Assembly (NCBI RefSeq): GCF_000004825.1
Contig: NW_008805064.1
Location: 1,612,001-1,676,000, forward strand
Origin: Heterostelium album PN500
Taxonomy: Eukaryota; Evosea; Eumycetozoa; Acytosteliales; Acytosteliaceae
Length of the DNA stretch: 64,000 bases
Direction: 5' to 3'
Below, piece by piece: positions 3,146 through 36,300 of this stretch (position 1 is its first letter; each line of letters starts with the position of its first letter). Made by a program: the position numbers and the translations under genes. The notes beneath the pieces are model-generated. The model had not been told where the DNA came from. It did not search any database and saw only the letters and a program-made list of their open reading frames with translations.

Positions 3146-4418
3146 CTTTTAAAGTATACTATCTAATATTATTTTATTTAGAAATACTACAATTCTATTC
3201 TTGGAGAATGGGTTATATTATTATTATAATACTATATACACAAATAATAAATAAAACTTGATTCTAATCTAAAGACATTAATGTAAAAGAGTTAGTTTGG
3301 TTTTATATTTATAAATAAATAATCTTTAGTTTTGAAAAAATTAATGCACAAAAATATTAAACTTTGCAAACATAAAAATTTTGAATCAATAGGATGCATT
3401 GATTCATATAAAATATCTTTTAAATCAATGAGAAATGAAAGTTTTCACTTACGTTTAAACGAATCTTGATCTTTCAATAATTTCTTTATTTCTTTTCAAT
3501 ACCGAGCTATGAATTATTATTATTAATGTTATAAAATAAATAAATAATTAATTATTACTTTTAAAATATATAAATAAAGAGTTATTACTTTTAAAATAGC
3601 GGCGAATTAAATAAATAAATAATTAAATAAATAAAATTTAAATATAGTGTTGATGTGATGTTGATGTTGATGTTGTGTTTGTTGTATGTATTTTCACTAC
3701 TATTATTATTGTTGTTGTTTTGTTGTTGAGATGTTGTTTCTCTCTCTTTTGCAAAACTTTACTTTAAATTTTTCTTTTTTTAAAAAAAGTGATTTGTACT
3801 CTGATGATTGTAAATGTTGTAAAAATAACACAACACTGTCTCAAACCTTCTTTATATATACATATAAATTATTATAATGTTTTGTTTAATAAATACAAAC
3901 TGATGTTTCGCCAATTTTCATAAACCACACCACACTCAAAGAGAAAATTCAATATAATTTTCACAAAAAAATGTGATTTTTTTTTTTCCACCAACAGAAA
4001 ATCATCAATCGAAAAAAGTAATCTTGATGTTATTACTGGTCAGAAAACCATGTAATGCAAATGTGATATAATTTAATTACTTTACAATGCATACACCAGA
4101 TTAATAATTTTGTCCTTATTGAAAGAAAATAATATAGAGTTTTGTTTGTGAATGTTTGGTTTACCAGCCAGACAAATATAAAAAAAAACATAAATACTTC
4201 GTATTTGATATTCATTAAGTTACTTGATCAACACTATGTTATTATGTTTCAATGATATTCATGTTTTTATTGTTTAAAAGAATAAATAAAATCAATTCAG
4301 TTTTATTTTTTGTTTTTTCAGAATGTGTTGTGTTGAACATCCAATGAGCAACACACTTTACTTTGTACATTAGTATTATTTCTATTAGTTAGAAGTTGTT
4401 GGTTGTTTGGCTTTGGTG
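3146..4418. other. Intergenic, no gene seen
   Basis: Extremely A+T-rich DNA upstream of the Rab gene and downstream of ORC4. It contains TAAATAAA-type tandem runs near 3535-3640 and a GATGTT repeat near 3650-3680. Short open frames here (for example 3686-3877 and 4033-4215) are Phe/Leu/Lys-rich translations of low-complexity sequence and I do not call them. Confidence 0.6.
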
Positions 4419-17074: not shown

Positions 17075-17896
17075 ATCAGAGTACAATTTTCATATTTCTA
17101 AAGAAAATATCAATAAAAGGAACTAAATTCAAATCAAACTTTTTTATTGTTTATTTTTTTGTTTCTTTAAATAAAGACTAATATTTACAACTGAAAGTAT
17201 TACCAAAATAAATTAAAATTCATTTTAAGGATATGATTTTACAGTGAATTTTGGTTAAAGATTTGTTGATGAAACCAATAGATTCATAATAATGGTCACC
17301 ACTTGGGAGATTCAATATTCCACTTATCAGCCGGTTCAAAGTTTTCATGAGATATATCTAATAATTGATTTTTTAAGGACTTTTGTTCTTGATGATGACA
17401 TTTTAATTTATAAATTAGAGAAACAAAACAAAAAGATGGTGAATATATATTATTTACCCCTCTGTTGATTCAAAACACATAACAAAACCACGATCCGCAA
17501 AGAAGATTAATTCACAGTGCCTAACCGACTATTCAATACAAAACTATTTAAGATCACAAACCAATAAACAAATCTTTTACCATTTCTGCGAATACAGTTA
17601 CTAGTATCACTGTAACAAGAAAAATTTGATGGTTTGATAATAATCAAATTTTTCTTTTTTTTTTTTTTACTGTTTTTGCTTTTCCTTAATTCTACGAATT
17701 GATTGCTATTTTGATTATTATTATAATTATTTTAGACATTGTTATTTTATAGATTATTAAGTTGATGAGAATACAAATGATTGAATTGGTTAATTGAAAA
17801 TGAAGAAATGAAGAAGAGGAAATAATAGTTGGCTGACATATGATTGGTTACTGGTTAAGTTTGGATTGTAAGTTACTGATACTGGAAATGGATTCC
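17075..17896. other. Gene-poor interval
   Basis: No intact gene. There is a perfect 14-bp hairpin at 17617-17656 followed by a T run, and short minus-strand coding-like pieces near 17338-17400 that are broken by stops. Confidence 0.45.
17617..17656. repeat. 14-bp perfect hairpin before a T run
   Basis: AAGAAAAATTTGAT (17617-17630) pairs with ATCAAATTTTTCTT (17643-17656) across a 12-nt loop, and a T run of about 14 follows. It could be a transcript 3' end or a decayed element terminus. Confidence 0.6.
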
Positions 17897-17940
17897 TTTT
17901 TTTTAATATAACTAATGTGGTATACATGTTTTATTTAAAG
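17890..17940 (-). repeat. Poly(T)-ended repeat, copy 1 (retroelement 3' end?)
   Basis: An oligo(T) run is followed by ...GGTATACATGTTTTATTTAAAG. The same unit recurs at 18690-18735 (TTT...GAGGTATACATGTTTTATTAAAAG). Read on the minus strand, each copy ends in an A run, as a retrotransposed 3' end would. Confidence 0.5.
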
Positions 17941-18194
17941 AAATTGAAAAGTAGCTTATAGCTACGAGAGAGGTATTTAAAATTGGAGAAGGAGGGTTGT
18001 ACCGCTCAATTGATCGTTTGTAATTTTGATTAATATTCCACCTGTCTCCTTTCATCCTTGATTTATCCTTAAAAAGATGTATTTGATCCACGTCGTACGA
18101 TTATCCGATCCTAAAAGAATTGTTGTATGAACTTTACCATTTCTAGATTCTAACTATTAAATTTCCATCGCCACATTCCATGATTTGATGGCTT

Positions 18195-18392
18195 CTATCT
18201 ACGTTGACAAGGCGTATGATTAGCTATTAAATCATTAATGAATGTGTCTTTTCTCGATTGTTGATCGCTGCTATATCCATTAAGTACTGGTATCTGTTCA
18301 CTCTCACATACCAAAGAGCGAATACCAATGTGAATAGTATGACCTACTGATGGATACCTATCCTCTATCCCGTCTGAGGTGTAAATGATTCC
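18195..18392 (-). pseudogene. Coding-like fragment of unknown family (65 codons)
   Basis: An open stretch following a TTTTGTAG acceptor-like sequence reads GIIYTSDGIEDRYPSVGHTI and ends HTPCQRR before a stop. Its composition is coding-like and its base content is higher in G+C than the flanks. No start codon or upstream exon could be joined, so it is most likely a remnant. Confidence 0.3.
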
Positions 18393-18396
18393 CTAC

Positions 18397-18480
18397 AAAA
18401 TATCATTGTTTTTAACATACCAAAAAAAGTAAAAAGAATGAAAAATTTAATTAAATTTTATTTATTTCGATTTTTCATTG
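18397..18480. repeat. Dispersed repeat, copy B (two blocks)
   Basis: 18397-18418 matches 14391-14412 directly; 18441-18480 matches 14334-14370 as reverse complement with a 4-nt indel. The two copies bracket about 4 kb. Confidence 0.75.
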
Positions 18481-18550
18481 GTCAACTCACTTTCAACCTG
18501 GATATATTAGGAATGTAAATGCAAATGATATTTTAGAGGGTGATTGTTAT

Positions 18551-18711
18551 CATTTGCCAGCGTAGGCTCGAAAGATATCTCAGACCATAATATCGATCTC
18601 GCCAGAAGAATCAAACAATTTTACACCAATCTACATGATTCTCAGCACACTATAAGAACCACTTTTTTGTGTCGCGCAGTCACAAATCATTTTTTTTTAT
18701 AATAACTAAAG
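18551..18711 (+). pseudogene. Decayed coding fragment
   Basis: A plus-strand open stretch reads SKDISDHNIDLARRIKQFY and then RTTFLCRAVTN before a stop near the T run. It looks coding and resembles the spacing seen near retrotransposon reverse transcriptases, but there is no catalytic motif. I cannot name the family. Confidence 0.25.
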
Positions 18712-18946
18712 AGGTATACATGTTTTATTAAAAGTTGTATTAAAAGGATGGATTTACCATCAAGTTTTTTTCGTAGTCTATTTTTTTCTTTTTAGTTGGT
18801 GGTTGATTTAATTAATTAGTTGGCAGGTTGGGAAGAGAGTTAATTTCATTTACTTGATTAGTTGGCTGGAGTTGGAGTGTTGTTTATTAATTTTAGAATG
18901 TTTCTGTGGATATCGAAGTCGGATATAATAGATTGGTTGGAGAAAT
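18690..18946 (-). mobile_element. Possible 5'-truncated retroelement copy with 13-bp target-site duplication
   Basis: CAGTCACAAATCA occurs at 18677-18689 and 18947-18959. Between the two copies lies a segment whose left end is an oligo(T) run (an A tail on minus) and whose first 45 bp match the repeat at 17890-17940. This is the structure of a retrotransposed fragment. No coding domain is left. Confidence 0.4.
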
Positions 18947-18953
18947 CAGTCAC

Positions 18954-18967
18954 AAATCACAAAAAAA
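18954..18967. repeat. Target-site duplication, left copy (14 bp)
   Basis: AAATCACAAAAAAA, identical to 19409-19422. It directly abuts the poly(T) end of the SINE candidate. Confidence 0.75.
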
Positions 18968-19408
18968 TTTTTTTTTTTTTTTTTTTTTTTAAAATTATCC
19001 TTGTACTACCATTACTGATAGTCAAGGTGTAGAGCTTGATATTACCCTACAGTTCGTGTTTTTATTTATTTATTGTTGGAGCAGTTCAGCCACAGGCCGG
19101 CTGAGGTGGCCATCATTTTGAGAAAGGGATGATGTTCCCATTGATTTGGTTTGGCAGACTGAGTATTTAAGCCACTTAGAATTCTAAGCGGGTACGTGTG
19201 TAAACCACTCGGTGTTCACCTATGATAAGCCTGCTAGTTACTGTCGGTGTCAACTTCATGGGGTCCAAGATAGTATTGAATACTAGATTAGTACGTGGCG
19301 CGCTCCTTTCAAGTCGGGAAAATTTTTTGTAAAAACCCGGGATCGATCCCACGACCCAAGTCCTCTAAGGCTTACTAATGGACCAACTTGGCCAAAGAGG
19401 CTTGGGCT
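18968..19408 (-). mobile_element. tRNA-derived SINE-like retroelement (about 441 bp)
   Basis: Read on the minus strand, the element starts with a tRNA-like head. An A box, TGGCCAAGTTGG (19394-19383), fits TRGYnnAnnnGG. About 45 bp on, a B box, GGATCGATCC (19349-19340), differs by one base from GGTTCGAnnCC. That is the A-to-B spacing of a tRNA. A G+C-rich body of about 250 bp follows, with a perfect palindrome CTTAGAATTCTAAG at 19175-19188, then an AATA-type run (19058-19078) and a terminal A tail of 23 (18990-18968). Perfect 14-bp duplications flank it. It has no open frame, so it would depend on a partner LINE; the dictyostelid TRE family is the obvious candidate. The head is too degenerate to be a working tRNA. 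Confidence 0.72.
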
Positions 19409-19422
19409 AAATCACAAAAAAA
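19409..19422. repeat. Target-site duplication, right copy (14 bp)
   Basis: AAATCACAAAAAAA, identical to 18954-18967. The preceding bases differ, so the duplication is exactly 14 bp. It abuts the 5' end of the SINE candidate and lies 69 bp from the 3' end of the tRNA gene. Confidence 0.75.
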
Positions 19423-19490
19423 GTGAAAATTTTATTAATGGTGTACATGCGCGCATTACGGGTATTACGGGTATTTATAAGTAATAGATA

Positions 19491-19561
19491 CTCCCCTTCC
19501 GGGAATCGAACCCGGGGTATCAGTGTGAGAGACTAATGTGTTACCACTACACCAAAGAGGA
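19491..19561 (-). tRNA. tRNA-Glu (CTC)
   Basis: 71 nt, no intron. The acceptor stem TCCTCTT pairs with AAGGGGA (one T-G wobble). The D arm is GTGT-AGTGGTA-ACAC, and the anticodon arm is TTAGT-CTCTCAC-ACTGA with anticodon CTC. The T arm is CCGGG-TTCGATT-CCCGG, and the discriminator is G. All four stems form. It reads GAG codons. The CCA end is not encoded, as expected for a eukaryotic nuclear gene. Confidence 0.96.
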
Positions 19562-19834
19562 ATTGGATGAATTTTAAGCTTCAAAATAAATTTTTTAAAC
19601 ATACTAAAATACACTAAAACAATTATCCACAAAACCAATTATATTAGTGGTTAAAATCGCATGTGTAGAACATCCCTCCTGGTCTTTATTTGATGTTCTT
19701 TTTAATACCAGTTGCAATTCAAATCTATGTCTCAACATCTCTTTAATCATGTTTCAACTAATCTGTATTAATGTTGTAAATTTAGAAGTCTTCATCAATA
19801 TAAATACACTTTACTATACAAAACTAAACAATAT

Positions 19835-33338: not shown

Positions 33339-36300
33339 ATGGCTCCTCCAGATTCATTAACAGATGGAGTTGACATGGTTGAGATAACACCATCCGATAC
33401 ACATAAAGGAGATGTTGCACCTCCAAGAACCGGAATGTATGTTACCGCCAAGAATTTAACATCGACAGTTGGTTCTGCAAAGAAAAAGAACGAGAAAAAT
33501 ATATTAGAAGATTTAAATTTCTTTTTAAAGGTAAAAATAATTTATTTGGTTGCAAACAAAATGATAATTATACTAAAAATAGTTTAATCAATTTTCTATA
33601 CTTTTTTTATTATTATTATAAATAGCCTGGATCAATGGTATTGATGCTTGGATCACCTGGTTGTGGTAAAACATCGGTATTTAAAGCATTGGCCGCACAG
33701 ACTCATCAAGAACGTCTGTCTGGAAGTTTATTATTCAATGGAAAGCAAGCAAACGACGATACACATCACTATGATGTATCGTACGTCGTACAGGACGACC
33801 AACATATGGCACCATTTACAGTTCGTGAAACATTTAAATTCAGTGCCGATCTCCAAATGAGACCGGGTACCACTGAGGATCAGAAGAACGAGCGTGTCGA
33901 TCACATCCTCAAGACTCTCGGTCTGACTGCACAAGCCGACACCGTCGTCGGAAATGAATTCCTTCGTGGAATTTCCGGTGGACAAAAGAAGCGTGTCACC
34001 ATCGGTGTTGAAATGGTCAAGGATTCACTACTCTATTTGATGGACGAGCCAACCACCGGTCTCGACTCCTCTACCTCACTCGAGTTGATGAAGCACATCA
34101 AGGAGGTTGTAGCCACCGAGAATATCTCTTGTCTGATTGCACTACTCCAGCCAGGTGTTGAAATCACCAAACTCTTTGATTTCCTTATGATTCTCTCCGA
34201 AGGACAGATGGCCTATTTCGGTCCAATGAATTCAGCAATCTCCTATTTCGAGGGACTTGGATTCAAGTTACCAAGTCACCACAATCCAGCAGAGTTCTTC
34301 CAGGAGATCGTAGACGAGCCCGAGCTCTACTACGAAGGTGAAGGACAGCCTCCCTTAAGAGGAACCGCCGACTTTGTCAACGCCTACAAAAACTCTGAAA
34401 TCTACAAACAAGTCGTTCACGACTTGGAAACCAATCAAGTCGATCCAATCTATTTCAAAGACAGCTCAGATTTGCCACGTTATCCAACTTCACTTTATTA
34501 TCAAATTCATCTCACCTCGCTTCGTGCTTTCAAAATGCTCATTTCCAATCCAGTCGTTGTTCGTGTGCGTATCATCAAATCCATTATTATGGGTCTCATT
34601 CTTGGTTCTCTTTATTATCAGCTCGGTTCCTCGCAGACCGACGGTAACAACAGATCTGGTCTAATTTTCTTTGCTCTTCTCTTTGTCATTTTCGGTGGTT
34701 TCGGTGCCATTACAGTGCTGTTTGAACAGAGGGCGGTGTTTTACGTGCAGAAAGATGGTAAATACTATCGAACTTTTGCATTCTTCCTTTCGCTGATCTT
34801 CTCAGAGCTGCCCATCTCAACGCTGGAAACTGTGATTTTCTCCACACTTGTCTACTGGATGTGTGGACTACAAGGAAACGCTGGAAAATTCATTTACTTC
34901 CTCCTGATGGTGTTGGCATCGGATCTCTCGTCACAGTCCTACTTTAAGATGGTGTCAGCATTCTCTGCGAATGCCACAATCGCTTCCGTCATTGCTCCAG
35001 CCATTTTGGCGCCGATGATATTGTTTGCCGGATTCATGATTGCTCGTCCATCGATTCCAAACTGGTGGATCTGGCTCTACTGGATCTCACCAATTCACTA
35101 TTCATTCGAAGGTTTGATGACCAATGAACATTATGGTCGTCACTATGGATGCTCCGACAGTGAAATGGTTCCACCCGCTTTTATTGCCAATGCTTCGTTC
35201 AACGGTCACCAAGTGTGTCCGTTCACCGACGGTAGTCAATTCATTGAACGTCTCGGTATGCAAGACAACAATTGGTTCAAATGGGTCGATCTTGCCATCG
35301 TTTTTGGATTTGCCATTATCTGGAGTTGCATGATGTACTACTTCTTGCGTGTCGTTCACTACGATTCGCGTGCTGCCAACGCTGAAGCTGACCGTCGTAA
35401 CTCGAAGCGTGCCAAGAAGACTGCTGCCGCCGGTAAGGAGCACAAGATCAGTGTCAAGAGCAACAAAGACGCCAAGATCAAGAAGGAAATTCCAATCGGA
35501 TGTTACATGCAATGGAAGAATCTTACCTATGAAGTCGACATCCGTAAAGATGGAAAGAAACAACGTCTCAGACTCTTAGATGGTATCAATGGTTACGTTA
35601 AACCAGGAATGTTACTTGCTTTAATGGGTCCATCAGGTGGTATGTATAAATAATAATTATTAAAAAAAATTTCGAGATTTCTCATACTAATTTTTTATTT
35701 CTAGCTGGAAAATCAACATTACTAGATGTTTTAGCAGATCGTAAGACCGGTGGTCATACTAAAGGTGAAATTTTAATTAATGGTGCTGCAAGAACCAAGT
35801 TCTTTACTCGTACTTCTGCTTATGTAGAACAACTCGATGTTTTGCCACCAACTCAAACCGTTCGTGAAGCTATCCAGTTCTCTGCCAAGACACGTCTTCC
35901 AAGCTCAATGCCAATGGAAGAAAAGATGGCATTCGTCGAGAATATTTTGGAGACTTTGTCATTGTTGAAGATTGCCAACAAGATGATTGGACATGGTGAG
36001 CAAGGTTTGTCACTCTCACAACGTAAGCGTGTCAATATCGGTATTGAACTTGCTTCCGATCCACAATTGCTCTTCCTCGACGAGCCAACCTCTGGTCTTG
36101 ACTCTAGTGCTGCGCTCAAGGTAATGAATCTCATCAAGAAGATCGCCATGTCTGGTCGTTCCATCATCTGTACAATCCATCAGCCATCGACTTCCATCTT
36201 CAAGCAATTCGACCATTTGCTGTTGTTGAAGAAGGGTGGTGAGACTGTATATTTCGGTCCAACTGGTGAGCGTAGTTCCATTGTTTTGGATTACTTTGGA

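Follow-up and report, generated by a model that had tools for sequence, protein, structure and literature searches.

The window analysed here, a 64,000-nucleotide stretch of the Heterostelium album PN500 genome, contains a full-length member of a SINE family, and one that was inserted recently. By every testable feature the family is a SINE, and what sets it apart is its placement, which is targeted to tRNA genes. Several things can be read directly from the genome: the copies with their ends and duplications, a head resembling a tRNA, where and in which direction the copies lie with respect to tRNA genes, and a tail common to the SINE and a LINE family (family C below). We consider it quite probable that this tRNA-headed SINE is mobilised in trans by that LINE, which is of the TRE3 type, and that it has inherited its tRNA-gene targeting from it.

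The body of the window copy (Table 1) is 100% identical to a copy elsewhere in the genome (G000:C6:311534-311974). The 23-nt A tail and the identical 14-nt flanks described in an earlier, sequence-only reading of the window were read directly from the sequence, and the G+C-rich, non-coding body that it proposed was confirmed: G+C content is 43.8% in the SINE body versus 33.6% in the window, and the longest closed ATG ORF overlapping the element is 44 aa long (ORFs were listed from 30 aa). The same reading did not include three points, namely the tRNA gene as target, the tail common with a TRE3-like LINE and the tRNA-Glu/TRE setting. Pieces of TRE families A and B are stacked at 17649-18950 of the window, behind the tRNA-Glu gene and past the SINE. 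With a tRNA gene on one side and TRE pieces on the other, the SINE thus landed between a tRNA gene and element types that are themselves targeted to tRNA genes.

Table 1. Features of the SINE copy and its surroundings, in window positions.
Feature	Position	Strand	Remark
SINE copy	19408-18968	minus	full length; 418-nt body 19408-18991 and 23-nt A tail 18990-18968
Target-site duplication, 5' copy, 14 nt	19409-19422		identical to 3' copy
Target-site duplication, 3' copy, 14 nt	18954-18967		identical to 5' copy
tRNA-like head, element positions 1-76	19333-19408	minus	best match tRNA-Phe(GAA) of the same genome
A box TGGCCAAGTTGG	19383-19394	minus	sole match to TRGYNNANNNGG on this element strand
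B box GGATCGATCCC	19339-19349	minus	2 mismatches, counted against the consensus GGTTCGANTCC
T5 run, element positions 74-78	19331-19335	minus	directly after head; possible Pol III terminator
Tail hairpin 1	19086-19104	minus	loop GGCCTGT as in C; pairing preserved despite changes on both sides at three pairs
Tail hairpin 2	19029-19050	minus	AATATCAA in loop as in C; pairing preserved despite changes on both sides at two pairs
Tail hairpin 3	18999-19027	minus	pairing of the lower stem preserved despite changes on both sides at two pairs; C pairs its upper stem in a different register
tRNA-Glu(CTC) gene, presumed target	19490-19562	minus	same strand as SINE, 81 nt upstream
Palindrome ATGCGCGCAT	19447-19456		33 nt past the tRNA-Glu gene end
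TRE family A copy, 5'-truncated	18690-18950	minus	adjoins SINE behind; 97% to family A locus positions 3288-3553
TRE family A fragment	17897-17940	minus	sequence match to family A
TRE family B fragment	17649-17884	minus	sequence match to family B

The sequence-only reading had suggested a genome search and had named a single-copy sequence, or copies with non-coinciding ends, as the outcomes that would speak against a tRNA-derived SINE. Our search with the element (32.9 Mb in 39 contigs) gave 54 matches that merge into at least 40 places, 40 of 56 first-look candidates having been scored. Ends coincide and duplications differ between copies, which establishes a family, and neither of the two adverse outcomes is seen in the window's genome. 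The proposed SINE was thus borne out in its dispersal, common ends, tRNA-like head, A tails and duplications. Searches with the head only (16 matches) and the tail only (40 matches) led largely to known places and to a few new short ones. We examined 43 loci, comprising L001-L030, 10 further loci of the 40 places and 3 places from the head search; L014 and L029 are presumed halves of one copy counted as two loci, giving 42 copies. The 5' end falls at element position 1-3 in ten copies (L001-L007, L016, L029 and L078), and seven full-length A-tailed copies are 94-100% identical to one another. Many of the remaining copies are 5'-truncated, as expected of target-primed reverse transcription.

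Target-site duplications were searched for automatically in 25 of the loci L001-L030; L011, L016, L021, L022 and L024 were excluded for want of an A run of at least 6 nt after the copy, and the 13 later loci (L068-L080) lie outside this test. All seven full-length A-tailed copies are flanked by duplications (14, 9, 10, 8, 6, 9 and 11 nt), whose sequences vary from copy to copy. Among copies of any length with an A run, a duplication of at least 6 nt is found in 9 of 25 and one of at least 8 nt in 8 of 25, versus 1.0% of 600 pairs at the latter length when flanks were swapped between copies. The automatic search found no duplication of 5 nt or more in 16 of the 25 A-run copies, all of them 5'-truncated except the half copy L029. 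By eye, and outside the 9 of 25, an 11-nt joint duplication of L029/L014 and an 8-nt duplication of L024 were also seen.

The L029/L014 copy is apparently split at element position 121 by ~3.5 kb of DNA (C17:462085-465620). One and the same AT-rich sequence, containing AATACTCCTAAATAT, lies within or next to several SINE copies at varied element positions (in L016 from 1745, in L078 from 1570 and in the 5' flank of L025) and is perhaps another mobile element.

The family was also placed relative to tRNA genes. With each SINE oriented 5' to 3', ARAGORN finds a same-strand tRNA gene within 1.5 kb upstream at 30 of the 43 loci (21 of 30 in L001-L030 and 9 of 13 in the later loci), and at none of the 43 loci does a tRNA gene lie downstream of the SINE. 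L080 has an opposite-strand tRNA gene farther upstream in addition to its same-strand gene; the counts exclude a call without an assigned type at L079 and include a doubtful tRNA-Phe(AAA) at L028. The gap between tRNA gene and SINE is 54-132 nt at 17 of the 30 loci (81, 95, 93, 130, 122, 128, 132, 102, 109, 108, 79, 54, 84, 55, 112, 111 and 113 nt), some of these gaps containing short remnants of other elements. At the other 13 it is 240-1277 nt, and many of these longer gaps hold fragments of TRE A, B or C or of other SINEs. At the remaining 13 of the 43 loci, no same-strand tRNA gene was counted in the 1.5 kb upstream. When seven of them were extended upstream, a same-strand tRNA gene was gained at L013, L021 and L022 (the last with a stretch of ~1.9 kb unread), only an opposite-strand gene appeared at L023, and L010, L026 and L030 had no tRNA gene within 5 kb upstream; the upstream flank of L025 stops at the contig end.

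A rough binomial estimate for 30 of 43 loci is 7e-51, on the assumption of 418 tRNA genes, which is the number of Dictyostelium discoideum (PMC5633606, PMC5911963). The D. discoideum number is described as an expansion relative to other dictyostelids (PMC5911963). Placement on one side and in one orientation is the stronger argument. In Polysphondylium pallidum, Pp_TRE3-A is reported to lie 26-138 nt and Pp_TRE3-B 57-151 nt from tRNA genes (PMC5006619 Table 1), and the SINE gaps of 54-132 nt agree with the TRE3 range. TRE3 elements are characterised by insertion ~100 bp downstream of tRNA genes and by ORF1 and ORF2, the latter with APE and RT. The SINE has the position and, being non-coding, lacks the ORFs; it is placed like TRE3, yet is no TRE3 element itself.

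A GC-rich palindrome lies ~15-35 nt past many of the tRNA gene ends sampled. Of 36 flanks, mostly from element-bearing loci, 16 contain CCGCNNGCGG and 9 contain GCGCGCAT, which makes 25 with either form. Across the genome, CCGCATGCGG occurs 63 times versus once for its reversed control, and ATGCGCGCAT 37 times versus 3. In contigs that the listing covers in full, an exact CCGCATGCGG or ATGCGCGCAT stands behind 15 of 45 listed tRNA genes. The palindrome may serve as a target element for Pol III or for TRE3. We also considered SINE heads as secondary TRE targets, many breakpoints falling at element positions ~107-165, and rejected the idea: where the left part of a SINE is present (L011, L017 and L020), that part is headless, and the distance from the insertions to the adjacent tRNA gene is roughly 90-110 nt.

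The head of the element is tRNA-like. Its local alignment with tRNA-Phe(GAA) scores 52, a value reached by none of 500 shuffles (best of 19 distinct tRNAs: mean 29 +/- 3.7, maximum 45), while 25 windows from the rest of the body score 24.5-32 against tRNAs; in global alignment, the score of the head was reached by 1 of 500 shuffles. The A box (19394-19383) and the B box (from 19349) were found where the sequence-only reading had placed them, the B box being taken here as 19349-19339. The A box pattern is kept in 7 of 9 copy heads compared by eye, L006 and L007 being the exceptions. The Rfam tRNA model does not report the head even at E = 10, which makes it a diverged relative of tRNA. At the loose threshold Rfam returned a molybdenum-riboswitch match (E = 2) and a 13-nt IRES match (E = 5.6), both of which we take as chance.

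With such a head, the SINE would be transcribed by Pol III. The T5 run after it is followed by a T4 run at element positions 87-90. In a sample of 36 tRNA genes of this genome, 22 have a run of at least 4 T within 20 nt of the gene end and 5 have at least 5 T, so the T5 and T4 runs may stop Pol III early. The T5 run is a main difficulty for a full-length Pol III RNA of the SINE.

A search for reverse transcriptases listed 40 matches, of which the best 30 were examined as loci, and revealed three TRE-like families; TRE-type LINEs are expected in a dictyostelid. In family A (L037-L042) the RT lies in an open ORF2 of 1107-1114 aa at five loci, and copies are ~99% identical to one another; family B (L048, L049) has an open ORF2 of 1133 aa at two loci. 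A and B are 51% identical and both carry APE and RT domains. Their domains, their position and their agreement with the published table point to A and B being TRE elements. Family C (L047, L056) has a broken ORF2 in both loci, and the open pieces of L047 carry APE and RT; its piece from the RT to the C-terminus is 37% identical to the ORF2 of A and of B. No unbroken C ORF2 is present among the 30 RT loci examined of the 40 listed, and only L047 and L056 of these 30 belong to C; together with the T5 run, this is a main difficulty for the reading proposed below.

Family C thus has the appearance of a third TRE3-like LINE (C3:3056141 and C2:1633197) with a broken ORF2 and many 3' ends, some of them recent. 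The published P. pallidum table has two TRE3 families (PMC5006619). All 9 C tails that lie within 3 kb of a listed tRNA gene are downstream of it and on the same strand, in a comparison of 40 C tails (of 106 candidates) with 63 tRNA genes (of 1916 candidates), and further C loci among the SINE loci show the same side and orientation behind tRNA genes. A 215-nt C tail has two other loci at 100% identity besides the query, suggesting that C is recent. By eye, C copies are inserted in SINEs at L011 and L024, and SINEs are inserted in C at L004 and L012. At the mosaic loci L011 and L024 we considered whether the SINE and C RNAs had been joined by template switching, and rejected this, as the junctions are those of C inserted into the SINE with its own duplications (13 nt with one mismatch, and 10 nt).

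The RT families of this genome agree with those reported for P. pallidum (now Heterostelium pallidum), for which the elements described include two TRE3 families that retain intact copies, NLTR-B, which bears an RNase H, and NLTR-C, which is R4-like (PMC5006619). From our own inspection of the translations, L051 appears NLTR-B-like and L052 NLTR-C-like.

Over its last ~115 nt the SINE has a three-hairpin tail in common with family C, the order in both being hairpin 1, the word ACACGAACT, hairpin 2, hairpin 3 and poly(A). Aligned with the 3' end of C, the final 128 nt of the SINE body reach a score of 49, and none of 1000 dinucleotide shuffles exceeds 31. Against A, B and L052 the same tail scores 21-22, values reached by 182, 195 and 244 of 1000 shuffles, so there is no significant similarity to the 3' ends of TRE A or B. 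The middle of the SINE (positions 91-290) has no match to the RT loci beyond shuffles, the score being reached in 49 (A), 19 (B), 104 (C), 144 (L052) and 137 (L051) of 200.

The hairpins were assessed in an alignment of 9 SINE and 6 C tails, the well-kept ones from 28 SINE and 12 C tail loci. RNAalifold recovers all three without guidance, and at 7 of the 18 pairs both sides have changed with pairing preserved. Over 17 pairs, 98.0% of 254 cells are paired, versus 82.1% in shuffled alignments and 31-47% when the structure is slid by 1-3 columns; 41 cells carry double changes versus 16.5 in shuffles, and none of 500 shuffles reaches the paired fraction, the number of double-change cells or the covariation score. 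Because these 15 tails had been chosen, the count was repeated on the full set of 40 tail rows, which also takes in degraded copies and fragments. With the same structure, 96.1% of 566 cells are paired (83.3% shuffled, 31-47% slid) and 60 cells carry double changes (17.2 shuffled; 0 of 500 shuffles), and RNAalifold by itself keeps hairpin 1 only, with three of its four pairs changed on both sides. The number of pairs changed on both sides is 7, versus 6.5 (15 rows) and 6.8 (40 rows) in shuffles, and thus not in excess; nor do further pair types exceed shuffles in either count. All seven double changes go back to a single split between two families. What the alignments establish for the shared tail structure is conserved pairing. 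Although part of hairpin 3 is missing from the copy at L012, this copy ends in an A tail and is flanked by a 9-nt duplication, which shows that a complete tail is not strictly required.

We propose that the tRNA-like head would act as an internal Pol III-type promoter and yield a SINE RNA, the 3' end of which would fold into three hairpins followed by poly(A). This tail would imitate the 3' end of the TRE3-type LINE family C, so that the reverse transcriptase and endonuclease of C could pick up the SINE RNA and insert it by target-primed reverse transcription, with the LINE proteins at tRNA genes choosing the target. Mobilisation by C and the manner of target recognition are what we infer here from the sequence comparisons. 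The closest rival would have the SINE mobilised by intact TRE A or B via poly(A) alone, the C-like tail being a relic of its origin; the targeting would be the same, A and B being TRE3-like too. ORF2 is open at the five A and two B loci, the near-identity of A copies (~99%) implies recent activity, poly(A) ends are common to A, B, C and the SINE, and the L012 copy has lost the end of hairpin 3. The SINE tail, however, keeps the loops and paired stems of C while having no significant similarity to A or B, and the 100% matches of the C tail at two other loci make C recent too. Service by A or B seems to us unlikely, if well worth keeping in mind.

Two further explanations dispense with mobilisation towards tRNA genes altogether. 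Dictyostelid genomes are gene-dense (PMC5006619), and selection might clear insertions elsewhere without any targeting by the SINE. Such clearance would not give one side, one orientation and 17 of 30 gaps at 54-132 nt, and family C has the same side and orientation, making it very improbable that selection accounts for the pattern. It is harder still to believe that this is an ordinary repeat which multiplied through recombination, or was carried along when tRNA loci underwent segmental duplication with their flanks. The nested element arrays behind tRNA genes could be read in that way, but many different kinds of tRNA gene adjoin the copies, no full-length A-tailed copy lacks a flanking duplication of its own, ends lie at fixed positions, and the flanks of the elements look different between loci by eye.

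Among known systems, Alu and other SINEs served by L1 have a Pol III-type head, poly(A), target duplications and dependence on a LINE in trans. The present family resembles them in its Pol III-type head, poly(A) and duplications and, presumably, in its LINE dependence. We know of no targeting of one gene class by L1 and Alu, and of no sequence tail shared between them. The eel pair UnaSINE1/UnaL2 is an example of the 'stringent' type, in which the tail is shared. A 3' end related to that of the partner LINE, a feature of this type that is not general to SINEs, is found here with family C.

The likeness to 'stringent' SINE/LINE pairs lies in a structured 3' end common to both partners, and in a plant case the loop is conserved while nucleotides of the stem vary (PMC3747384). 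The difference is that no tRNA-gene-targeted LINE is described among such pairs in the excerpts of that paper, and that here three hairpins are followed by poly(A). TRE3 elements (Pp_TRE3-A and Pp_TRE3-B; PMC5006619) are like the SINE in lying ~100 bp downstream of tRNA genes and in their poly(A) end; unlike it, they are LINEs with two ORFs, ~4.4-5.3 kb long when full-length (PMC5006619 Table 1), whereas the SINE has a non-coding 418-nt body with a tRNA-like head. With TRE5-A.2, a targeted dictyostelid LINE likewise serves a derivative without ORF2 in trans (PMC5633606), but that derivative is a TRE variant lacking ORF2 with no Pol III-type head, and TRE5 inserts upstream of tRNA genes.

The sequence-only reading knew of no described dictyostelid SINE, and we likewise found none in the open-licence literature, though a Repbase entry is possible. 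The survey of PMC5006619 states that it looked for repeats up to 3 kb to each side of every tRNA gene, and 'SINE' and 'non-autonomous' do not occur in its main text. SINEs are mentioned only in general terms in the excerpts of PMC5911963, and PMC5633606 mentions the non-autonomous TRE5-A.2 and does not contain 'SINE'. Nor did we find a tRNA-gene-targeted SINE in the open-licence literature, including the excerpts of PMC4640811 and PMC5911963. The family would fill a gap in the dictyostelid retroelement survey (PMC5006619). If our reading is right, a parasite of a parasite also takes over the 'safe harbour' strategy of its LINE. The SINE would then provide a natural template of 418 nt for testing how TRE3 recognises RNA and target, and its compensated three-hairpin tail would make tail recognition by a LINE directly testable in amoebae.

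We tentatively raise the possibility that TRE3 targeting itself creates SINEs, by read-through of a tRNA head, a spacer and a truncated LINE tail, and that the present family is one such locus grown. A 5'-truncated LINE inserted ~100 bp downstream of a tRNA gene in the same direction would place its own 3' tail behind a Pol III promoter, and the resulting element, on returning to tRNA genes, would seed new loci with a tail behind a promoter. In the SINE, the head is followed by a T run, as at 22 of 36 tRNA genes, and ~30 nt farther on by a GCGCGC core that resembles one of the palindrome types behind tRNA genes of this genome.

Elsewhere in the window, the ORF at 33635-35653 resembles an ABC transporter of the ABCG/PDR type (best PDB match 6.6e-120).
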